DNA of 64,000 bases, taken from Streptomyces sp. B21-105. GTDB lineage: Bacteria > Actinomycetota > Actinomycetes > Streptomycetales > Streptomycetaceae. The stretch spans positions 2,542,001-2,606,000 of the forward strand of contig NZ_JARUMJ010000001.1 in the NCBI RefSeq assembly GCF_036898465.1. Direction: 5' to 3'. Shown here in pieces: positions 54,822-63,938 of this stretch. A program made the translations under genes and the position numbers. How positions within the stretch are numbered: the first letter of the stretch is position 1; each line of letters begins with the position of its first letter. Under the pieces are notes generated by a model. That model worked only from the letters and a program-made list of their open reading frames with translations. It was not told the DNA's origin and searched no databases.

Positions 54822-55553
54822 CTATCCTACGGCCGTTCCGAAGAAGCTGCCCAGGGCGTAGGTCACACCGGCCGCCGCACCGCCGAGGACCAGCTGCCGC
54901 AGCCCGCTGAACCACCAGGTCCGCGCCGTCACCTTGGCCACCACCGCGCCGCAGCCGAACAGGCCGAGCAGGGCGAGCAGCACGGCCGGCCACAGCGAGG
55001 AGGCGCCGAGCAGGTACGGCAGGACGGGCAGCAGCGCGCCCAGCGCGAAGGACCCGAAGCTGGACACGGCGGCGACCAGCGGGGACGGCAGATCCGACGG
55101 ATCGATGCCCAGCTCTTCGCGGGCGTGTATCTCCAGGGCCTGCTCGGGGTCGCGCGACAGCTGGCGGGCGACCTGCCGGGCCAGCTCGGGTTCGACGCCC
55201 CGGGACTCGTAGAGCGCGGCGAGCTCGGCCTCCTCGTCCTGCGGGTGCTTGCGCAGTTCCCGCCGCTCGACGGCCAGTTCGGCCTCGACGAGTTCGCGCT
55301 GCGAGGCGACGGAGGTGTACTCGCCGGCCGCCATGGAGAAGGCGCCGGCGGCGAGCCCCGCGAGGCCGGTGACGACGAGGGTCTGCTGTCCCGCGGATCC
55401 GCCGGCGACGCCGGTCATCAGCGCGAGGTTGGAGACCAGGCCGTCCATCGCGCCGAAGACGGCGGGGCGCAGCCAGCCGCCGTTGACGTCACGGTGGGTG
55501 TGGTTGTCGCGGTGCGCCTCGTGCAGCGGCGCCTCGGTCTCGATGATGGCCAC
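54822..55553 (-). CDS. VIT1/CCC1-family iron/manganese transporter
   Basis: A 243-residue membrane protein. It reads LRPAVFGAMDGLVSNLALMTGVAGGS (first helix with conserved Asp), GLAGLAAGAFSMAAGEYTSVASQREL (second helix with the Met/Glu metal residues), a charged cytoplasmic helical hairpin ELRKHPQDEEAELAALYESRGVEPELARQVARQL that matches the VIT metal-binding domain, then three more helices. Such proteins export or store Fe(II)/Mn(II). A Fur-like inverted repeat lies 35-49 bases upstream of the ATG. Confidence 0.92.
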   Translation of the reverse strand: MAIIETEAPLHEAHRDNHTHRDVNGGWLRPAVFGAMDGLVSNLALMTGVAGGSAGQQTLVVTGLAGLAAGAFSMAAGEYTSVASQRELVEAELAVERRELRKHPQDEEAELAALYESRGVEPELARQVARQLSRDPEQALEIHAREELGIDPSDLPSPLVAAVSSFGSFALGALLPVLPYLLGASSLWPAVLLALLGLFGCGAVVAKVTARTWWFSGLRQLVLGGAAAGVTYALGSFFGTAVG

Positions 55554-55587
55554 GGAGATCCCCCAGTAAGCTGAGCCAAAGCTAAGT

Positions 55588-55602
55588 TTAGACTGATTCT
55601 AA
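55588..55602. promoter_or_regulatory. Fur-like inverted repeat upstream of the VIT gene
   Basis: TTAGACTGATTCTAA is a 15-bp inverted repeat (TTAGA..TCTAA). It is also part of a 17-bp-phased direct repeat of CTAAGTT (55582 and 55599). The core ACTGATTC resembles FurA/PerR-type sites of actinobacteria as I remember them. Position fits a promoter operator for the metal transporter. Confidence 0.5.
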
Positions 55603-55712
55603 GTTCCTACAACGTGAAGATACGCCTCGGGATTCCGGCCCGCCACCAAGGAGAGGCTCGGCTAACCAGCACTTTTCCCTTCGAGCGCTCATTCGATCGA
55701 CTATCCGCACAG

Positions 55713-55730
55713 ATGTCGACCGGGTGACAT
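55713..55730. promoter_or_regulatory. Candidate promoter/operator of the ADP-ribosylglycohydrolase operon
   Basis: ATGTC (55713-55717) and GACAT (55726-55730) make a short inverted repeat with an eight-base spacer, followed at once by ATAGGG, a plausible -10. It lies about 95 bases upstream of the first gene. The GT-N-AC layout suits a GntR-type operator, but no such regulator gene is inside the window. Confidence 0.35.
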
Positions 55731-55823
55731 ATAGGGCGCCGAGGCTCGGGTCAACCGCCGACGGTGGGACACATCCGCAGACGGTTCCGCGCCCGAGCGG
55801 AGCCACGGTGGAGAGGCCCGCCC

Positions 55824-56972
55824 ATGGCGACGATCCGTGAAAGAGCCCGCGGCGCCCTGCTCGGCCTCGCCGTCGGAGACGCCCTCGGCGCGCCCGCCGA
55901 GAACATGAAGCCGTCCGAGATCCGCGCCCGCTGGGGCCGTATCACCGGGTACGTATCCGACCGGCCGGCCGGCACGGACGACACCGAGTACGCGATCTTC
56001 TCCGGTCTGCTGCTCGCCCGGCACGGTTCCGCGCTCACCCCCGCCCACGTCGAGTCGGCCTGGCACCAGTGGATCGCCGACCGCGACGAAGGCCCCTTCC
56101 GCGGCGCGGGATTCAGCGAGCGCGGCACCCTGGAGAACCTCCGCCGCGGCCTCGCGGCGCCCATCTCGGCGCAGCACCGGCACGCCTGGAGCGACGGCCT
56201 CGCGATGCGCGCGGCCCCCTTCGGCGTCTTCGCCGCGGGCCGCCCGGCGGAGGCGGCCCGGCTGGTCGCGATCGACGGCGCGGTGAGCCACGACGGCGAG
56301 GGCATCTACGGCGGGCAGGCGGTCGCCGCGGGAGTGGCCGCGGCGATGGCCGGAGCGCCGCCGATCGCGGTGGTCGCCTCGGCTCTCGCGGTGGTCCCCG
56401 AGGACTCCTGGACGGCGCGCTCCCTGCGCCGGGCGGCGGCGGTGGCCCACCGGGGCGAGCGGGCCGTGCGCTCGGCCGTCGTCGTCGGCGGCTATCCGTG
56501 GACCGACCTGGCCCCGGAGGCCGTCGCCCTCGCGTTCGGCGCGTACGCGGCCGCCGACGGCGACTTCCGCGAGGCGGTCCTGACTGCCGTGAACATGGGC
56601 CGCGACGCGGACACCACGGCGGCGGTGGCGGGCGCCCTGGCCGGCGCCACCCGGGGGGTCTCGGCGATCCCGCCGGACTGGGCGGCGGCCATCGGCCCCG
56701 CGCGGGGCACCTGCCTGCCCTCGATGACGGGCCATCACGTGCTGGACGTGGCCGAACTGCTGGTGCCGGGCGAGGGCGGGAAGTGGGGCGAGGGCGTGGT
56801 CGTGGCGGAGATCGTGCCGAGCCTGATGAGCCCGTGCGGGCTCTCCCACCCGGACCCGACGTCCTTCACCCTGACGGCGGCAACGGCAACGGCAACGGCA
56901 ACAGCGGCAGCGGCAGCGGCAGCGGCAGTAGCGACGGCAACGGCGAACGACAGCGCGGAGGCGTGCTCATGA
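55824..56972 (+). CDS. ADP-ribosylglycohydrolase family protein 1
   Basis: A 382-residue DraG-fold protein. It has ALLGLAVGDALGAPAEN, the metal motif GTDDTEYA, SHDGEGIYGGQAVAAG and the second metal motif NMGRDADTTAAVAGALAGA, all as in active enzymes. DraG-fold hydrolases cleave ADP-ribose or other N-/O-glycosidic ribosyl bonds using two Mg ions. The last 35 residues are a Thr/Ala repeat encoded by a microsatellite (56879-56944). The ATG has a GGAGAGG site. Its stop overlaps the next ATG (ATGA). First of seven coupled genes. Confidence 0.92.
   Translation: MATIRERARGALLGLAVGDALGAPAENMKPSEIRARWGRITGYVSDRPAGTDDTEYAIFSGLLLARHGSALTPAHVESAWHQWIADRDEGPFRGAGFSERGTLENLRRGLAAPISAQHRHAWSDGLAMRAAPFGVFAAGRPAEAARLVAIDGAVSHDGEGIYGGQAVAAGVAAAMAGAPPIAVVASALAVVPEDSWTARSLRRAAAVAHRGERAVRSAVVVGGYPWTDLAPEAVALAFGAYAAADGDFREAVLTAVNMGRDADTTAAVAGALAGATRGVSAIPPDWAAAIGPARGTCLPSMTGHHVLDVAELLVPGEGGKWGEGVVVAEIVPSLMSPCGLSHPDPTSFTLTAATATATATAAAAAAAAVATATANDSAEACS
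56879..56944. repeat. Hexanucleotide microsatellite at the junction of two glycohydrolase genes
   Basis: GGCAAC occurs four times (56879-56902), then AGCGGC four times (56903-56926), then a degenerate GGCAGTAGC.GACGGCAACGG tail. In the frame of gene 1 it encodes Thr/Ala runs; in the frame of gene 2, which is open here, it would encode Gly-Asn and Gly-Ser runs. Changes in copy number by other than whole codons are not expected from hexamers, so the frame is stable. Confidence 0.9.
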
Positions 56973-58351
56973 AACCGCCCGCTCCCTGGGACGAGACGAT
57001 GACGACCACAGCAGCAGCGGCAACCACAGCAGGCGCCACCACGGTCACGGCGGCGCCCTGCGCACCCGCACCGGCGCCCACACCCGACAAGGGCGCGCCA
57101 CAGAGGCCGTCCGCCCCCGGCCGCGAGGGCCGCGCCGGAGCGGCGGGACGCCACCGCACCGGTGCGACGGGCCGGAGGGGCGAGCCCGCGGGCGACGCCG
57201 AGGCGGCCGAGACACGGGGGTCCGCCCGCCCGCGGCACGCGCGCCGCATCGAGGGCCTGCTGCTGGGCCTGGCCGCGGGCGACGCCGCCGGGTGGCCCGC
57301 CGCCCGCCATCGCGCCGCCCGGATGCCGGAGTGGACCCGCCGCCTGACCCGCGAGCTCGACACCTTCGCCGAACACAACGCGACGACCACCCTCCCCGTC
57401 CCCATCGCCCTGAACCAGCCCCCCGAACCCCTCCGGCTCGGCCCCTCCGACGACGCCGAGTGGGCGGCGTTCGCCGCCGAGGCGGTGCTGCGGGCCGGCG
57501 ACGACACCGCCCTCGGCGACCTCGGCCGGGAACGCCGGATGCGCGCCGCCATCGACCTCACCTGGAACGCGATCGCCGGCGAGGTCGCGGCGGCGGCCGA
57601 CCGCGCCCCGGAGGTCGAGTCCGCCGTCCTGCCCCTGCGCGCCCGCATCTCCGTGCGCGCCGGACTGGGCAACCTCGCCGCCGGTCTGCGTCCCCCCGCC
57701 ACCGGCCACGACAACCCGCACTACTTCGACGACGCGGCCTGCGTACGCGCCTGCGTCCTCGCCGTGGCACACGCGGGCGACCCCGGCGCCGCCGCCGGCC
57801 TCGCCGAGTTCGACGCCCGCTACACCCAGGACGGCGACGGCGTGCACGGCGCCCGGGCGATGGCAGCGGCACTCGCGCTGGCCCTGGCCGGAGCGGACGT
57901 CGAGGCCTGTACGACGGCGGCGCTCGGCGAGCTCCCCGCACACACCGAGATCGGCCGCAACGCCCGGCACGCCCTGGACCTGGCCCGTGGCGCGCCGAGC
58001 GCGTTCGCGCTCATCCCGCTGCTGGAACACCAGATCGTCGACCACGTCTACAGCTACGGCATCGCGGCGGCTGAGACCGTGCCGGTGGCGCTGGCCCTGG
58101 CGACGGCGTCCGGCGGCCGCATCGGCGAGGCGGTGCCGGCCGCGGCCTGCCTCTCCCGGGTCGCCGACTCGGCCCCGGCCCTGGCGGGCGCGCTGACCGG
58201 GGCGCTCGGCGGCGCCGCCGCGATCCCCGAGGCGTGGCGCGACAGCTGCCGGGTCCTGTCCGGCTGCGCACTCCCCCGGCTCACCGGCACCGACCTCGTG
58301 GAACTCGCCGGACTCCTGGAAGCCGCACAACCGGCCCCACCAGGAGGATGA
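56969..58351 (+). CDS. ADP-ribosylglycohydrolase family protein 2, degenerate metal site
   Basis: A 460-residue protein. An unusual Thr/Ala/Pro/Arg-rich region (about 1-85) precedes the DraG fold: RRIEGLLLGLAAGDAAGWPAARH, then GPSDDAEWAAFAAEAVL where the usual DDT is DDA, DGDGVHGARAMAAALALAL, and CLSRVADSAPALAGALTGALGG in place of NxGRDxDT. Loss of the Thr and of one Asp suggests altered or lost catalysis. It may be a partner or binding subunit of its neighbours. The ATG overlaps the stop of gene 1; its TGA overlaps the region before gene 3. Confidence 0.87.
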   Translation: MKPPAPWDETMTTTAAAATTAGATTVTAAPCAPAPAPTPDKGAPQRPSAPGREGRAGAAGRHRTGATGRRGEPAGDAEAAETRGSARPRHARRIEGLLLGLAAGDAAGWPAARHRAARMPEWTRRLTRELDTFAEHNATTTLPVPIALNQPPEPLRLGPSDDAEWAAFAAEAVLRAGDDTALGDLGRERRMRAAIDLTWNAIAGEVAAAADRAPEVESAVLPLRARISVRAGLGNLAAGLRPPATGHDNPHYFDDAACVRACVLAVAHAGDPGAAAGLAEFDARYTQDGDGVHGARAMAAALALALAGADVEACTTAALGELPAHTEIGRNARHALDLARGAPSAFALIPLLEHQIVDHVYSYGIAAAETVPVALALATASGGRIGEAVPAAACLSRVADSAPALAGALTGALGGAAAIPEAWRDSCRVLSGCALPRLTGTDLVELAGLLEAAQPAPPGG

Positions 58352-58359
58352 TTCGATGC

Positions 58360-59607
58360 ATGACGCCCAAAGCAGTTGAAAGCAGCGGGGCAGCCCTGGA
58401 GGAGCGGATCACCGCCGCACTGGTGGGCGCGGCCGTGGGGGACGCCCTCGGCGGCCCCGTCGAGGGCTACACCCCGGAGCAGATCCTCGAACGCCACGGC
58501 GGCCCCGTGCACGGCATCGTCGGGCCCTGGAACGGCGACGACTGGCGCACCGCCCGCCCCATCGCGCCGTACCACAAGGGCGACGGTCACGTCACCGACG
58601 ACACCCTGATGACCCATGCGCTGATCAGGGTCTACGCCACGGTCCGCGACCACCTGGACGCCTACGCGGTCGCCGGCCACCTCGTCCCGGACCTGATGAC
58701 GACGCCCCGCTGGATCCCGGAACTGGAGGCCGAGGCGCTCCCCCTGCACCGGATCTTCCTGGCGGAGAAATGGCTGGTCGCCCGGCTCCACTACGGCCAC
58801 GTGGACCCGCGGGAGGCCGGTGTGGGCAACATCGTCAACTGCGGCGCGGCGATGTACATGGCCCCGGTGGGCCTGGTCAACGCGGCCGACCCGGCGGCGG
58901 CGTACGCGGAGGCGCTGGACGTCGCGGGCGCCCACCAGTCGTCCTACGGCCGGGAGGCGGCGGGCGTCTTCGCGGCGGCGGTGGCGGCCGCGTGCACGCC
59001 GGGCGCGACCGCGGAGTCGGTGGTGACGGCCTGTCTGGCGCTGGCGAAGGACGGCACGCGCACGGCGATCGAGAAGGTCTGCGAGGAGGCCGCCCGGCAC
59101 GGCGACGCCGAGTCCGCGCTCGCCCCGCTCAGGGCGGCGGTGGCGCCCTACGACACGGTGGGACCCGACTACCGGCAGCCCTCGCTCGGCGCCCGCCGCC
59201 CCTCCCGGCTGCACGCGATCGAGGAACTCCCGGTCGCCCTGGGCATGGTGCTGGCGGCCGGCGGCGACTACCGCCGGGCGGTCCTCGGCTCCGTGAACTA
59301 CGGCCGCGACTGCGACTCGATCGCCACGATGGCGGGCGCGGTGGCCGGCGCCCTCGGCTCGCCGGTCCCCGAGGACTGGTCGAAGCAGGTCGCCGAGGCC
59401 AGCCGCCTCGACCTGTGGCAGCCGGCGGCGACGCTCGCCGAGGTCGCCCGCGAGGTCTTCCACCGCGACGTCGAACGCCGCCGCACCCGCGAGCGGGCGT
59501 TCCGCACCCTCTCAGGCGGCCTCGCAGGCGCCCTCACAGGCATCCCCGAAGGCACCTTCGAAAGTGCCCTCGCAGGCTCCCCCGGAGGCTCCGGATGCTC
59601 CGACTGA
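58360..59607 (+). CDS. ADP-ribosylglycohydrolase family protein 3
   Basis: A 415-residue DraG-fold protein with complete metal motifs: ALVGAAVGDALGGPVEGYTPEQI, GHVTDDTLMTHALIRVYA, and NYGRDCDSIATMAGAVAGALG. The segment NIVNCGAAMYMAPVGLVNAADPAAAYAEALDVAGAHQSSYGREAAG matches a DraG subgroup often found in carbohydrate or nucleoside operons. AGGAGG lies 12 bases before the ATG used; an ATG four codons earlier (58348) abuts the ribosome site and is less likely. It overlaps gene 4 by 13 bases. Confidence 0.91.
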   Translation: MTPKAVESSGAALEERITAALVGAAVGDALGGPVEGYTPEQILERHGGPVHGIVGPWNGDDWRTARPIAPYHKGDGHVTDDTLMTHALIRVYATVRDHLDAYAVAGHLVPDLMTTPRWIPELEAEALPLHRIFLAEKWLVARLHYGHVDPREAGVGNIVNCGAAMYMAPVGLVNAADPAAAYAEALDVAGAHQSSYGREAAGVFAAAVAAACTPGATAESVVTACLALAKDGTRTAIEKVCEEAARHGDAESALAPLRAAVAPYDTVGPDYRQPSLGARRPSRLHAIEELPVALGMVLAAGGDYRRAVLGSVNYGRDCDSIATMAGAVAGALGSPVPEDWSKQVAEASRLDLWQPAATLAEVAREVFHRDVERRRTRERAFRTLSGGLAGALTGIPEGTFESALAGSPGGSGCSD

Positions 59608-60974
59608 CCTGGGTCCAGCCGGAGGACCTGCTCGGCCACGAGCTGCGCCAGGCGGCCGAGGACGGCCGGGAGCCGTGGGCGGTCGCCGCCCGCTGGAGAG
59701 CGGCCGGGGGCTGCGAGGCGCCGCCCCGGGCCGGCGCGTCCGGGCAACGGGCCTCGGGCTATCTGCGGCTCCTCGCGGACGACCTGCTGGACGAACTGGC
59801 GGACCTGCCCAGCAGACTGGCCGAGGACGAGCCGACCGAACTCGAGAAGATCAAGGCGCTGTGCCCCCGATGGCCGGCCCGGCCGGCGGGCGCGAGGCCA
59901 CCGGCGCCCGCGCAGGCCCGCCTGGAGGCGGCCTGGCTGGGCCGGGCCGCCGGCTGTCTGCTGGGCAAACCGGTGGAGAAGCTCCCCCTGGACGCCGTCC
60001 GCCGGCTCGCCCGGGCCGCCGGCAACTGGCCCCTGACCGGCTATTTCACCGCCCGGGGAGTCCCCCGCACGCTCCTCGACGAGCACCCCTGGAACCGCCG
60101 CTCGGCACCCACCTCCCTGGCCGAGAACATCGACGGCATGCCCGAGGACGACGACCTCAACTACCCCCTCCTCAACCTCCTGCTGCTGCAGCGCCACGCC
60201 AGGGGCTTCACCACCGCCGACGTGGCCCGGCTCTGGCTCGACGAACTCCCCGCGGGCCGCACCTTCACCGCCGAACGCGTCGCCTACCGCAACCTCCTCT
60301 GCGGCATCGAGCCCCCGCACACCGCCCGCCACCGCAACCCCTTCCGGGAGTGGATCGGCGCCCTGATCCGCGCCGACGTGCACGGCTGGACCAACCCCGG
60401 CGACCCGGCCGCCGCGGCCGAGCAGGCGCACCGCGACGCCGTCCTCACCCACACCGGCAACGGCGTCTACGCGGCGATGTTCACGGCGGCCGTCGTCGCC
60501 GCGGCCACGACCGGCGACCTCGACGTGCACGCCTGCCTGCGCACCGGCCTGTCCGTCGTCCCGCCCCGCTCCCGGCTCACCGTCGCCGTCACCCACGCCA
60601 TCCGGCTCGCCGGGGAACACGCCGACTTCGACACCGTCGTCGACGAGCTCCACATCGCCCACCGAAGCGCCCACTGGGTGCACGCCGTCCCCAACACGGC
60701 CCTGATCGCCGCCGCCCTCACCCACGCGGACGGCGACTTCGCCGGCTCCATCTGCCGTGCCGTATCGGGGGGTTGGGACACCGACTCGGACGGCGCGACC
60801 GCGGGCGGCGTCGCCGCCCTGCTCACCGGCAGCCCGGCAGCCCTCCCCGACCGCTGGACGGCCCCCCTCAAGAACCGGCTGGCCACCTCCGTCGCCGACT
60901 TCGACGGCGTCGGCTTCGACGCCCTCGCCCACCTCACCCGGTCCCTCGTCCCTCGGGAGGCATCGCGCCCATGA
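59595..60974 (+). CDS. ADP-ribosylglycohydrolase family protein 4 (EDDDLNY subgroup)
   Basis: A 459-residue protein. Residues 1-100 form an added N-terminal helical region (LTWVQPEDLLGHELRQAAEDG). The DraG fold follows: AWLGRAAGCLLGKPVEKLPLDAV, then GMPEDDDLNYPLLNLLLLQRHARGF for the first metal site and VSGGWDTDSDGATAGGVAALLTG for the second. The EDDDLNY form and the GCLLGKPVE start define a subgroup distinct from classical DraG and common beside sugar kinases. The ATG has a CGGAGG site. The stop overlaps the ribokinase ATG. Confidence 0.91.
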   Translation: MLRLTWVQPEDLLGHELRQAAEDGREPWAVAARWRAAGGCEAPPRAGASGQRASGYLRLLADDLLDELADLPSRLAEDEPTELEKIKALCPRWPARPAGARPPAPAQARLEAAWLGRAAGCLLGKPVEKLPLDAVRRLARAAGNWPLTGYFTARGVPRTLLDEHPWNRRSAPTSLAENIDGMPEDDDLNYPLLNLLLLQRHARGFTTADVARLWLDELPAGRTFTAERVAYRNLLCGIEPPHTARHRNPFREWIGALIRADVHGWTNPGDPAAAAEQAHRDAVLTHTGNGVYAAMFTAAVVAAATTGDLDVHACLRTGLSVVPPRSRLTVAVTHAIRLAGEHADFDTVVDELHIAHRSAHWVHAVPNTALIAAALTHADGDFAGSICRAVSGGWDTDSDGATAGGVAALLTGSPAALPDRWTAPLKNRLATSVADFDGVGFDALAHLTRSLVPREASRP

Positions 60975-61864
60975 CCGACATCGTCGTGCTCGGCAGCACG
61001 AACATGGACCTCGTCGCCTACGTCGAGAAACCCCCGCAGCGCGGGGAGACCGTGACCGGACGGGAGTTCCGCACGATCCCCGGCGGCAAGGGCGCCAACC
61101 AGGCGACCGCCGCCGCCCACGCCGGCGGCGCCGTCTCCATCATCGGGGCAGTCGGCAACGACTCGTTCGGCGCCCGACTGCGCTCCACACTCGAGCACGC
61201 GGGCGTCAACACCGACCACCTGCGCACCGTCGAGGCCCCCTCCGGCACCGCGCACATCGTGGTGGACGACGACGGCGGCAACGCGATCGTCGTGGTACCC
61301 GGCGCCAACGGCACCGTCGACCATCTCGCCCCCGGCGACGAAGGTCTCATCGCCTCCGCGGACGCGCTGCTGCTGCAACTCGAAGTGCCCCTGGCCGCGG
61401 TCGTCGCGGGCGCGCTGGCGGCCCGGGCGCACGGCGTGCGCACGATCCTCACCCCCGCCCCCGCCCGGCCACTGCCGCCCGAACTCCTCGACACCATCGA
61501 TCTGTTGGTGCCCAACGAGCACGAGGCGACCGCGCTCACCGGCCGCACCGACCCGCACGAGGCGGCCACCGTGCTGCTGGACAGCGTCCCCGAGGTGGTC
61601 ATCACCCTCGGCGCGGCCGGCAGCCTCTACGCGGCCCGGGACGCCGCACCCCTCACCGTGCCCGCCCCGCGCGTCACCGCCGTGGACTCCACCGGCGCCG
61701 GCGACACCTTCGTCGGCGCCCTCGCGGTCGCCCTGGGCGAGGCACGGCCCGTACGGGAGGCGCTGGCCTGGGCGGCGGCCGCGGCCGCGCTCTCCGTCCA
61801 GCGCCCCGGCGCCTCCGCGTCGATGCCGTACCGCTCCGAGATCGACAAGCGGTACGCCTCATGA
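60971..61864 (+). CDS. Ribokinase (PfkB family)
   Basis: A 297-residue sugar kinase. Motifs: IVVLGSTNMDLVAYVEKPPQRGET, TIPGGKGANQATAAAHAGG for sugar binding, LVPNEHEAT, TLGAAGSLY, and the catalytic DSTGAGDTFVGALAVAL. These are the ribokinase signatures, with D-ribose as the expected substrate. In this operon it would phosphorylate ribose (or a related pentose) released by the glycohydrolases. Coupled on both sides by ATGA overlaps. Confidence 0.94.
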   Translation: MTDIVVLGSTNMDLVAYVEKPPQRGETVTGREFRTIPGGKGANQATAAAHAGGAVSIIGAVGNDSFGARLRSTLEHAGVNTDHLRTVEAPSGTAHIVVDDDGGNAIVVVPGANGTVDHLAPGDEGLIASADALLLQLEVPLAAVVAGALAARAHGVRTILTPAPARPLPPELLDTIDLLVPNEHEATALTGRTDPHEAATVLLDSVPEVVITLGAAGSLYAARDAAPLTVPAPRVTAVDSTGAGDTFVGALAVALGEARPVREALAWAAAAAALSVQRPGASASMPYRSEIDKRYAS

Positions 61865-63111
61865 CCGAACCCCTCATGACCGAACGCGTCATCGCCGCAT
61901 CCCCTGGGGCCGGGCAGACCGCTCGGACCGCTCCCCTGCACGGCGTCCGGGTCCTGGACCTGGCCACCCTGTTCGCGGGGCCCCTCGCCGCCACCCTGCT
62001 CGGCGACTTCGGCGCGGACGTCGTCAAGGTCGAGCACCCCGACCGGCCCGACCCCTCCCGGGGACACGGCCCGTCCAAGGACGGCGTGGGCCTGTGGTGG
62101 AAGCTCCTCGGCCGCAACAAGCGCAACGTCACCCTGAACCTGTCCACGCCCGGCGGCCGCGACACCCTGCTGCGGCTCGCCGCAACGGCCGACGTGATCA
62201 TCGAGAACTTCCGCCCCGGCACCCTGGAGAAGTGGGACCTCGGCTGGGCGGAACTGTCGGCGGCCAACCCCCGGCTGGTCCTCGCCCGGGTCACCGCCTT
62301 CGGCCAGTTCGGCCCCTACGCGCACCGCCCCGGCTTCGGCACCCTCGCGGAGGCGATGAGCGGCTTCGCGGCGATCACCGGCGAACCCGACGCCCCGCCC
62401 ACCCTGCCGCCCTTCGGCCTGGCCGACTCGATCGCCGGCCTGGCCACCGCGTACGCCGTCATGACGGCCCTCACCGCCCGCGACCGCACCGGCGAGGGCC
62501 AGGTCGTCGACATGGCGATCATCGAGCCCATCCTCACCGTTCTCGGCCCCCAGCCCCTCTGGTACGACCAGCTGGGGTACGTCCAGGCCCGCACCGGCAA
62601 CCGGTCCGCCAACAACGCCCCGCGCAACACCTACCGCACGGCGGACGGCACCTGGGTCGCCGTCTCCACCTCGGCCCAGTCGATCGCCGAGCGCGTGATG
62701 CGCCTGGTCGGCCGCCCGGAGCTGATCGACGAGCCGTGGTTCGCCACCGGCGCCGAGCGGGCCGCCCACACCGACGTCCTCGACGAGGCGGTCGGCTCCT
62801 GGATCGCCCGGCACACCCGCACCGACGTCCTCGCGGCCTTCGAGAAGGCGGAGGCGGCGATCGCCCCGGTCCAGGACGTCCGGGACGTGCTGTCCGACCC
62901 CCAGTACCAGGCCCTGGACACCGTCACCGCGGTGGACGACCCGGAGCTCGGCCGGATCCGTATGCAGAACGTCCTCTTCCGGCTCTCCGCGACCCCCGGC
63001 GCGATCCGCTGGGCCGGCCGCCCGCACGGCGCCGACACGGACGCCGTCCTGACCGAACTGGGCCTGACAGCGGACGAGCTGAGCACGCTGCGCGAGGCGG
63101 GCGCCCTGTGA
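61861..63111 (+). CDS. Class III CoA-transferase (CaiB/BaiF family)
   Basis: A 416-residue family III CoA-transferase. It shows LHGVRVLDLATLFAGPLAATLLGDFGADVVKVEHPDRPDPSRGHGP, ADVIIENFRPGTLEKWDLGW, and GEGQVVDMAIIEPIL with the catalytic Asp. It moves CoA between carboxylic acids. The next gene, a CitE/HpcH lyase, suggests that the acid activated is a hydroxy- or methyl-dicarboxylate such as citramalate. The ATG overlaps the ribokinase stop (ATGA); a second in-frame ATG lies five codons later. Confidence 0.92.
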   Translation: MTEPLMTERVIAASPGAGQTARTAPLHGVRVLDLATLFAGPLAATLLGDFGADVVKVEHPDRPDPSRGHGPSKDGVGLWWKLLGRNKRNVTLNLSTPGGRDTLLRLAATADVIIENFRPGTLEKWDLGWAELSAANPRLVLARVTAFGQFGPYAHRPGFGTLAEAMSGFAAITGEPDAPPTLPPFGLADSIAGLATAYAVMTALTARDRTGEGQVVDMAIIEPILTVLGPQPLWYDQLGYVQARTGNRSANNAPRNTYRTADGTWVAVSTSAQSIAERVMRLVGRPELIDEPWFATGAERAAHTDVLDEAVGSWIARHTRTDVLAAFEKAEAAIAPVQDVRDVLSDPQYQALDTVTAVDDPELGRIRMQNVLFRLSATPGAIRWAGRPHGADTDAVLTELGLTADELSTLREAGAL

Positions 63112-63938
63112 AGAAACCCCCACTGACCTGGCTCTACGTTCCCGGTGACCGTCCGCAGACCGTCACCAAGGCCCTCGCCTGCGGCGCCGACGTCGTCATC
63201 GTCGACCTGGAGGACGCGGTCGCCCCGGACCGCAAGGAGTACGCCCGCGCCGCCACCGCCGAACGCCTTTCGGAACCCCAGCCGGTACCGGTCCACGTCC
63301 GGGTGAACTCCCTGGACACCCCCTACGCCGCGGCGGACCTGCGCACGGTGGCCGCCCTCCCCGGCGTCTGCGGACTGCGCCTGCCGAAGGTGACGGCCCC
63401 GCACCAGATCACCCGGGTCGCCGAGAGCGTGCCCAGGAGCGACCGCGGCGTCACGCCCCTGCACGCCCTGCTGGAGACCGCCCTCGGCGTCGAACACGCC
63501 TACGCCATCGCCCGCGCCCACCCCTCCCTGCGCGGCATCGCCCTCGGCGAGGCGGACCTGCGCGCCGATCTGGGCGTCCGCCACGACGCGGGCCTCGACT
63601 GGTCGCGCTCCCGTGTCGTCGTCGCCGCCCGGGCCGCCGGACTGGCGCCCCCGCCCCAGTCGGTCCACCCCGACATCCGCGATCTGGACGGCCTGGCCAC
63701 CAGCTGCGCCCACGGCCGCACCCTCGGCTTCCTGGGACGCGCCGCCATCCACCCCCGGCAGCTCCCGATCATCGAACAGGCCTACCTGCCGACCCGGCAG
63801 GAGCTGGAGGACGCCGAGACGATCGTCAAGGCTGCCATCACCGAACGGGGCGCCCAGGCCCTCCCGGACGGACGGTTCGTCGACGCGGCGGTGGTGGCGG
63901 CCGCACAGCGCACGCTGGCCCTGGCCGACCGGGACTGA
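63108..63938 (+). CDS. CitE/HpcH-type beta-hydroxyacyl-CoA lyase
   Basis: A 276-residue TIM-barrel lyase. Motifs: LTWLYVPGDRPQTVTKALACGADVVIVDLEDAVAPDRKEYARA (metal Glu/Asp), VHVRVNS, GLRLPKV, HALLETALGVEHAYAIA and LGFLGRAAIHPRQLPIIEQAY. The family cleaves malyl-, citramalyl- or citryl-CoA into acetyl-CoA and an oxoacid. The GTG overlaps the CoA-transferase stop (GTGA). It is the last gene visible; 62 bases remain to the window end, so the operon might continue. Confidence 0.93.
   Translation: MKKPPLTWLYVPGDRPQTVTKALACGADVVIVDLEDAVAPDRKEYARAATAERLSEPQPVPVHVRVNSLDTPYAAADLRTVAALPGVCGLRLPKVTAPHQITRVAESVPRSDRGVTPLHALLETALGVEHAYAIARAHPSLRGIALGEADLRADLGVRHDAGLDWSRSRVVVAARAAGLAPPPQSVHPDIRDLDGLATSCAHGRTLGFLGRAAIHPRQLPIIEQAYLPTRQELEDAETIVKAAITERGAQALPDGRFVDAAVVAAAQRTLALADRD

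Follow-up and report, generated by a model that had tools for sequence, protein, structure and literature searches.

In Streptomyces sp. B21-105, we analyzed a window of 64,000 nucleotides (nt) (assembly GCF_036898465.1, contig NZ_JARUMJ010000001.1, positions 2,542,001 to 2,606,000). Seven genes on its + strand, from 55824 to 63938, form a continuous series with successive overlaps of 4, 4, 13, 4, 4, and 4 nt. Four of them encode members of the ADP-ribosylglycohydrolase (ARH) family, here called ARH-A to ARH-D, and the remaining three encode a ribokinase-family kinase (K), a class III coenzyme A (CoA)-transferase (T), and a CitE/HpcH-type lyase (L). A sequence-only reading had described this set, and the gene coordinates and the Pfam and NCBIfam models confirmed it (Table 1). 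A consensus scan across the unit found no promoter-like and no terminator-like sites; shuffled sequences gave expectations of 0.1 and 1.2, respectively, and the result carries little weight in either direction.

Table 1 Features of the seven-gene unit and of the region upstream of it (positions in the window)
Feature	Position	Strand	Properties
VIT1-family gene	54822-55553	-	VIT1 model, 238.9 bits
Intergenic region, VIT1-family gene/ARH-A (divergent)	55554-55823		Conserved blocks in alignment of 21 Streptomyces loci
ARH-A	55824-56972	+	382 aa; DraG fold; TDDTE and GRDADT motifs complete; PF03747, 206.7 bits
ARH-B	56969-58351	+	460 aa; DDAE present; second metal motif SRVADS, without first Asp; PF03747, 114.4 bits
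ARH-C	58348-59607	+	419 aa; TDDTL and GRDCDS complete; PF03747, 163 bits
ARH-D	59595-60974	+	459 aa; EDDDLN/GWDTDS type; N-terminal extension of ~100 residues; PF03747, 161.4 bits, residues 112-414
K, ribokinase-family kinase	60971-61864	+	297 aa; PF00294; TIGR02152, 306.3 bits
T, class III CoA-transferase	61861-63111	+	416 aa; PF02515, 412 bits; Asp217 conserved
L, CitE/HpcH-type lyase	63108-63938	+	276 aa; GTG start; PF03328, 126 bits; Arg65, Glu123, Asp150, and Asp259 conserved

Conservation of the operon in Streptomyces

In a sample of 147 genomes of the order, the source genome counted, 97 had an ARH-D match of at least 68% identity, and these matches were confined to one of five genera. 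From the 96 other genomes, we picked 20 loci spread over the range of identity. The order A-B-C-D-(K)-T-L, between gltB/VIT and lgt/trpA, was kept in all 20, and an in-frame start yielding the 4-nt overlap of T with L was present in 21 of 21 Streptomyces loci. K matches (E ≤ 1e-90, anywhere in the genome) were found in 70 of the 121 genomes of a genus sample. At one Streptomyces locus (L256), the ARH-B and ARH-C matches were shortened, and the operon is seemingly decaying in place.

Longer operons in other bacteria

With ARH-C as the query, a phylum-wide sample gave matches in Streptomyces only (8 of 296 genomes). A denser sample of the class (394 genomes, 137 genera) gave matches in 62 genomes from 15 genera, and 33 of the 62 lay outside Streptomyces. 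We fetched 19 of those 33 loci for comparison. Matches to a LacI-type regulator and to a solute-binding protein (SBP) were present in all 19, both T and L in 16, and K in 13. The complete set of LacI, permease(s), SBP, A, B, C, D, K, T, and L was found in 11; A and B were missing from 3 (L245, L249, and L252). Nonomuraea gerenzanensis has LacI, two permeases, SBP, A, B, C, D, and K, and the 23 kb read there held no T or L match.

The presence of operons bearing LacI and ABC transporter genes in other actinomycetes is most simply explained if Streptomyces lost the regulator and the importer; judged from these gene arrangements, the unit in the window is most likely the remnant of a longer operon. 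We considered whether the importer was retained elsewhere in the source genome, but the best match to the Nonomuraea SBP had 29% identity (70 bits) and was not a clear orthologue. Loci L252 and L253 belong to one family whose genomes are 1.3 to 1.8 Mb in size and 98 to 99% complete. Both retain ARH-C, T, L, and the importer; there the pathway survives in small genomes.

In 8 of 10 gaps in the actinomycete operons, we read an additional protein of ~640 residues, which lies between K and T in L245 to L248, L254, and L255 and between D and T in L249 and L252. Pfam gave only an FGE-sulfatase domain (three of the eight proteins were scanned), and the FGE/SUMF1-like part is C-terminal. A structural model (pLDDT 79) gave weak Foldseek matches, to an amylase barrel (TMq, ~0.35) and to FGE-like proteins (~0.2). 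A PDB sequence search with the N-terminal part was empty save for one match at E = 0.95, and a protein database held 1,868 relatives at E ≤ 1e-10. The protein hints that the substrate may be a larger glycoside in the species that carry it. As a pointer to the identity of the sugar it was set aside, since the weak Pfam and Foldseek matches name no sugar.

Genomes were also scanned with an ARH-C alignment; the best 80 of 102 relatives were kept, and these came mostly from Devosia and other Alphaproteobacteria. Counts were made on the 65 of these 80 loci with at least 16 kb, using thresholds of 150 bits for T, 80 for L, and 100 for K. T and L were both present in 46 loci, T only in 6, and neither in 13; K was on the same strand in 6. 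The arrangement LacI-perm-perm-SBP-ARH_C-ARH2-(UgpC)-T-L, in which ARH2 is a D-like ARH, was found in 46 of the 65. T was present in 52 of 55 loci with ARH2 versus 0 of 10 without it, and same-strand K was present in 1 of 55 versus 5 of 10. Because T-L tracks ARH2 and K is found where ARH2 is missing, this pattern suggests that different strains may use different halves of the pathway, the sugar or the acid.

Variants also occur. In Ensifer canadensis, T occupies the position of the kinase; in Rhizobium RCAM05350, T is followed by an aldolase/citrate lyase gene. In Paraburkholderia/Caballeronia, a sugar-type transporter of the major facilitator superfamily adjoins ARH-C and, at the two of four loci scanned, passes the gluP model (342 and 311 bits; cutoff, 202.55). 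Nucleoside import of the yegTUV type was rejected on the same scans, in which these transporters matched gluP/NagP-type sugar transporters and nucleoside families were not among the matches listed. The alphaproteobacterial operon is also present on a contig titled Mycobacterium sp. KBS0706 (NZ_VCCH02000052.1, L137), the T of which clusters with that of Inquilinus limosus; perhaps the assembly is mislabeled or mixed.

Relationships of the CoA-transferases

The best match of the window's T was the T of the ARH operon in six of seven genomes with such an operon; in the seventh, Devosia limi, it was second best, outscored by a second T-L locus. Scores against these T proteins ranged from 313 to 358 bits, whereas any other CoA-transferase scored ≤214. 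In a tree of 56 rows, which omits 10 further matches without a locus, the 35 ARH-linked rows formed one group (support, 100/98), and the remaining 21 rows, CoA-transferases from these genomes without that link, fell outside it.

The sequence-only reading had proposed that the seven genes form one unit and had named chance adjacency in this strain as what would undo that view. The conserved-neighbor comparison supports one conserved functional unit: the order is kept in Streptomyces, other actinomycetes and Alphaproteobacteria have the set as well, and in both of these T and L again accompany the ARHs. This recurrence, together with the T clade, rules out chance clustering. As read from the sequences, the genes travel together, their catalytic residues are kept, and the copies in relatives sit with sugar-type importers and LacI. 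Because of the larger operons elsewhere and the ARH-linked T clade, we put at about one-half the probability that the seven genes make up the enzyme part of a carbohydrate-type catabolic module, the full form of which (LacI, permeases, SBP, four ARHs, ribokinase, CoA-transferase, and lyase) is found in other actinomycetes.

Assignment of the seven proteins

All four ARHs pass the PF03747 cutoff of 26.2 bits (207, 114, 163, and 161 for A, B, C, and D, respectively). The metal motifs quoted in the sequence-only reading are present in the translations and conserved across orthologues. A, C, and D retain both acidic motifs, DDx and DxD(S/T); GRDADT and (T/S)DDTE are each present in 38 of 38 ARH-A orthologues, and GLD replaces GWD in 2 of 21 Streptomyces ARH-D proteins. 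The first Asp of the second motif is gone in 37 of 37 ARH-B sequences. The best PDB sequence match of ARH-A was DraG (2woe; 2.3e-19), the predicted structure of ARH-C has the ARH3/DraG fold, and a PDB sequence search with the ARH-D type gave nothing at E ≤ 0.001. The proteins thus resemble DraG, ARH3, and MJ1187 in the fold of ARH-C and in the metal motifs of A, C, and D, but differ in the EDDDLN/GWDTDS type of ARH-D and in the metal Asp lacking from ARH-B. The four ARHs had been supposed to have separate tasks. Their motifs are indeed distinct, but the missing metal ligand of B and the absence of A and B from 3 of 19 actinomycete loci weaken the supposition.

Streptomyces also has an ARH-D paralogue (45 to 47% identity; loci L261, L262, and L263). 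In L263 (7228-11598) and L261, the paralogue and a glycerate kinase-family gene are divergently oriented; a Sir2-family gene comes next in L263, ~1.2 kb from the paralogue. A CitE-like gene from another pathway lies ~5 kb upstream.

K passes TIGR02152 (cutoff, 299.65 bits), in agreement with the ribokinase type proposed earlier, and misses the stricter NF008353 (264.5 of 341 bits). Asp217 of T is kept in at least 97% of 95 aligned rows; we take it to be the conserved, catalytic Asp of the GQxVD motif. The four L residues in Table 1 are kept in at least 97% of 87 aligned rows, the Glu and an Asp presumably binding metal and the further Asp presumably serving as the lid residue. Among the curated NCBIfam equivalogs for CoA-transferases, lyases, DraG, and Tri1, none reached its cutoff on the operon proteins. 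The best CoA-transferase equivalog for T was NF052585 (247 bits; cutoff, 750), and T scored 156.3 bits against the RipC model NF038242 (cutoff, 375).

Surroundings of the operon

The operon promoter is likely to lie in the intergenic region between the VIT1-family gene and ARH-A. In the alignment of this region from 21 Streptomyces loci, the block CGCCAGCAAG was present in 18 and the block CTAACCTGCG in 8; these blocks resemble an iron-regulator box that would serve the VIT1-family gene. Upstream, the genes for the large subunit of glutamate synthase and the VIT1-family protein are both on the - strand. Downstream, past the end of the window, lgt, a DsbA-like gene (named by reading), trpA, trpB, and trpC converge toward the operon.

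The 9.2-Mb source genome has 10 PF03747 matches, 4 of which belong to the operon. Counting those in the operon itself, it has five T-like places (E ≤ 1e-25) and two L-like ones (E ≤ 1e-8). One PF03747 gene (G000:C1:267770-268194) is split over two frames and apparently broken.

Relation to known systems

Among eight DraG/ARH homologues of Streptomyces coelicolor, SCO2028 to SCO2031 are listed as uncharacterized DraG homologues (PMC9411070); another paper so lists SCO2028 to SCO2030 (PMC5087735). SCO5809 was taken as the ARH-like representative (PMC11833690), and SCO2038 is trpX of the trpCXBA locus (PMC5036795). Since four consecutive numbers are ARHs, and since the window's locus lies between gltB and lgt/trpA/trpB/trpC with SCO2038 being trpX, SCO2028 to SCO2031 are very probably the orthologues of ARH-A to ARH-D. 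The available portions of the SCO2028-SCO2031 papers treat them singly, as putative ADP-ribosyl hydrolases, and mention no kinase, CoA-transferase, lyase, or operon. The excerpts of the open-licence PMC literature that were searched held no description of the module.

The yegTUV genes of Escherichia coli are similar in that a putative transporter, an ARH-family protein, and a putative sugar kinase are under one regulator, yegW (ggaR). Their functions are left open (PMC10819704). They differ in having one ARH, no CoA-transferase or lyase, a nucleoside-symporter-like transporter, and a GntR regulator said to sense ADP-glucose; set against this type (a transporter, a single ARH, and a PfkB kinase), the window's operon has four ARHs and no transporter.

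Itaconate and citramalate degradation (Rip/Ict-Ich-Ccl) combines a MaoC-type hydratase with a CoA-transferase and a CitE-type lyase. The operon shares the CoA-transferase followed by a CitE-type lyase, but none of its seven genes encodes a hydratase and T misses the RipC cutoff.

Proposed pathway and alternatives

In the catabolic module that we favor, A, C, and D, as dimetal enzymes of the DraG fold, would hydrolyze a small glycoside at its anomeric linkages, whether N-glycosidic, O-glycosidic, or possibly glycosyl-ester, and B would act as a noncanonical partner. The pentose set free, probably ribose, would be phosphorylated by K. The carboxylic acid set free would be converted to its CoA thioester by T, and cleavage of this thioester by L would yield an oxo acid or aldehyde together with a short acyl-CoA, probably acetyl-CoA. 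In Streptomyces the substrate would arrive by another route or form inside the cell. A stronger version, to which we give somewhat less than even odds, is that at least two phyla share one previously undescribed pathway, in which a sugar conjugate is imported and cleaved by DraG-fold small-molecule glycosidases, with B as a noncanonical partner, and a dedicated CoA-transferase and CoA-lyase degrade the aglycone acid.

Several observations weigh against a single pathway. K is missing from its place in 5 of 20 Streptomyces loci and from 6 of the 19 other actinomycete loci. T and L are present without ARH-D in L253; L237, L242 (a short contig), and L243 have D, and neither T nor L was seen in the part of these loci that was read. 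Mycolicibacterium has an ARH and a ribokinase without T-L. The same is true of an Agrobacterium plasmid, where LacI, ABC genes, ARH-C, a D-like ARH2 of 700 residues, UgpC, and a ribokinase occur together, an exception to the pattern of split halves. Devosia and its relatives account for most of the 65 proteobacterial loci, and counts on such related loci are not independent trials. In the T tree, several of the 21 other CoA-transferases are on long branches, several rows carry long-branch warnings, and one other protein (L183, on a very long branch) joins beside the ARH-linked group. In several genomes, another CitE-like protein outscores the operon's own against the window's L; orthology of L across phyla is unsupported, and the match is one of family only. 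Finally, the second T-L pair of Devosia limi (L213, 6882-15394, - strand) has no ARH match in 19 kb. Around it lie genes for an IclR-family regulator, an importer unlike that of the ARH operons, a D-2-hydroxyacid dehydrogenase, and an RraA-like protein, as in an operon for acid uptake; it could offer a route to the acid substrate of T and L. The membership of seven that had been proposed stands as a unit, but K is dispensable and T-L is not tied to ARHs alone.

Because T-L occurs without ARHs, ARHs occur with a ribokinase and without T-L, and L253 has T-L without D, there could be two independent branches under one regulator, with the ARHs and the kinase serving ribosides and T-L an unrelated, co-occurring organic acid. 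The Devosia limi, Agrobacterium, and Mycolicibacterium loci fit this explanation, as does the failure of L to be the best match across phyla. Nevertheless, we consider it unlikely: the T proteins of ARH operons are one clade, the T-L pair accompanies ARHs in two phyla, and T tracks the D-like ARH2.

Less probable still is that the ARHs free proteins, nucleic acids, or small molecules of ADP-ribose, with K, T, and L recycling the ribose and carbon. All four are PF03747 proteins, ARH-C is modeled with the ARH3/DraG fold, and the S. coelicolor counterparts appear in the papers cited above as DraG-like hydrolases. However, the relatives carry LacI and sugar importers, and the operon proteins score far below cutoff against the DraG equivalog TIGR02662 (best, 82.7 of 337 bits) and the Tri1 immunity hydrolase equivalog NF041672 (best, 50.2 of 490 bits). 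SCO2028 and SCO2030 showed no detectable activity on a single substrate, U-alpha-ADPr (PMC13036486). By Pfam, none of the seven genes encodes an ADP-ribosyltransferase, the component expected in a transferase-ARH pair or a DarTG-like system, so a toxin or immunity system linked to such an enzyme was rejected. The operon had been judged metabolic rather than a signaling system, and both the missing transferase and the regulators and sugar-type ABC transporters of the relatives uphold that judgment.

Improbable, finally, is a salvage of acyl-ribose in which the ARHs, like ARH3 (for which hydrolysis of O-acetyl-ADP-ribose has been reported), split acyl esters at the anomeric position, T reactivates the acid, and L cleaves it: such chemistry would link ARH to CoA-transferase in one step, and the ARH-D paralogue has a Sir2-family gene nearby in one Streptomyces locus, but Pfam finds no sirtuin or acyltransferase among the seven genes, nothing points to an ester, and the relatives import their substrate by sugar-type systems.

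If the catabolic module is real, many genes labeled as ADP-ribosylglycohydrolases would belong to carbon metabolism. In S. coelicolor, four of the eight listed DraG/ARH homologues would be reassigned from ADP-ribosylation signaling to carbon metabolism. That would help account for the apparent large excess of hydrolases over transferases in Streptomyces. The relatives that carry the transporter make the substrate directly findable.

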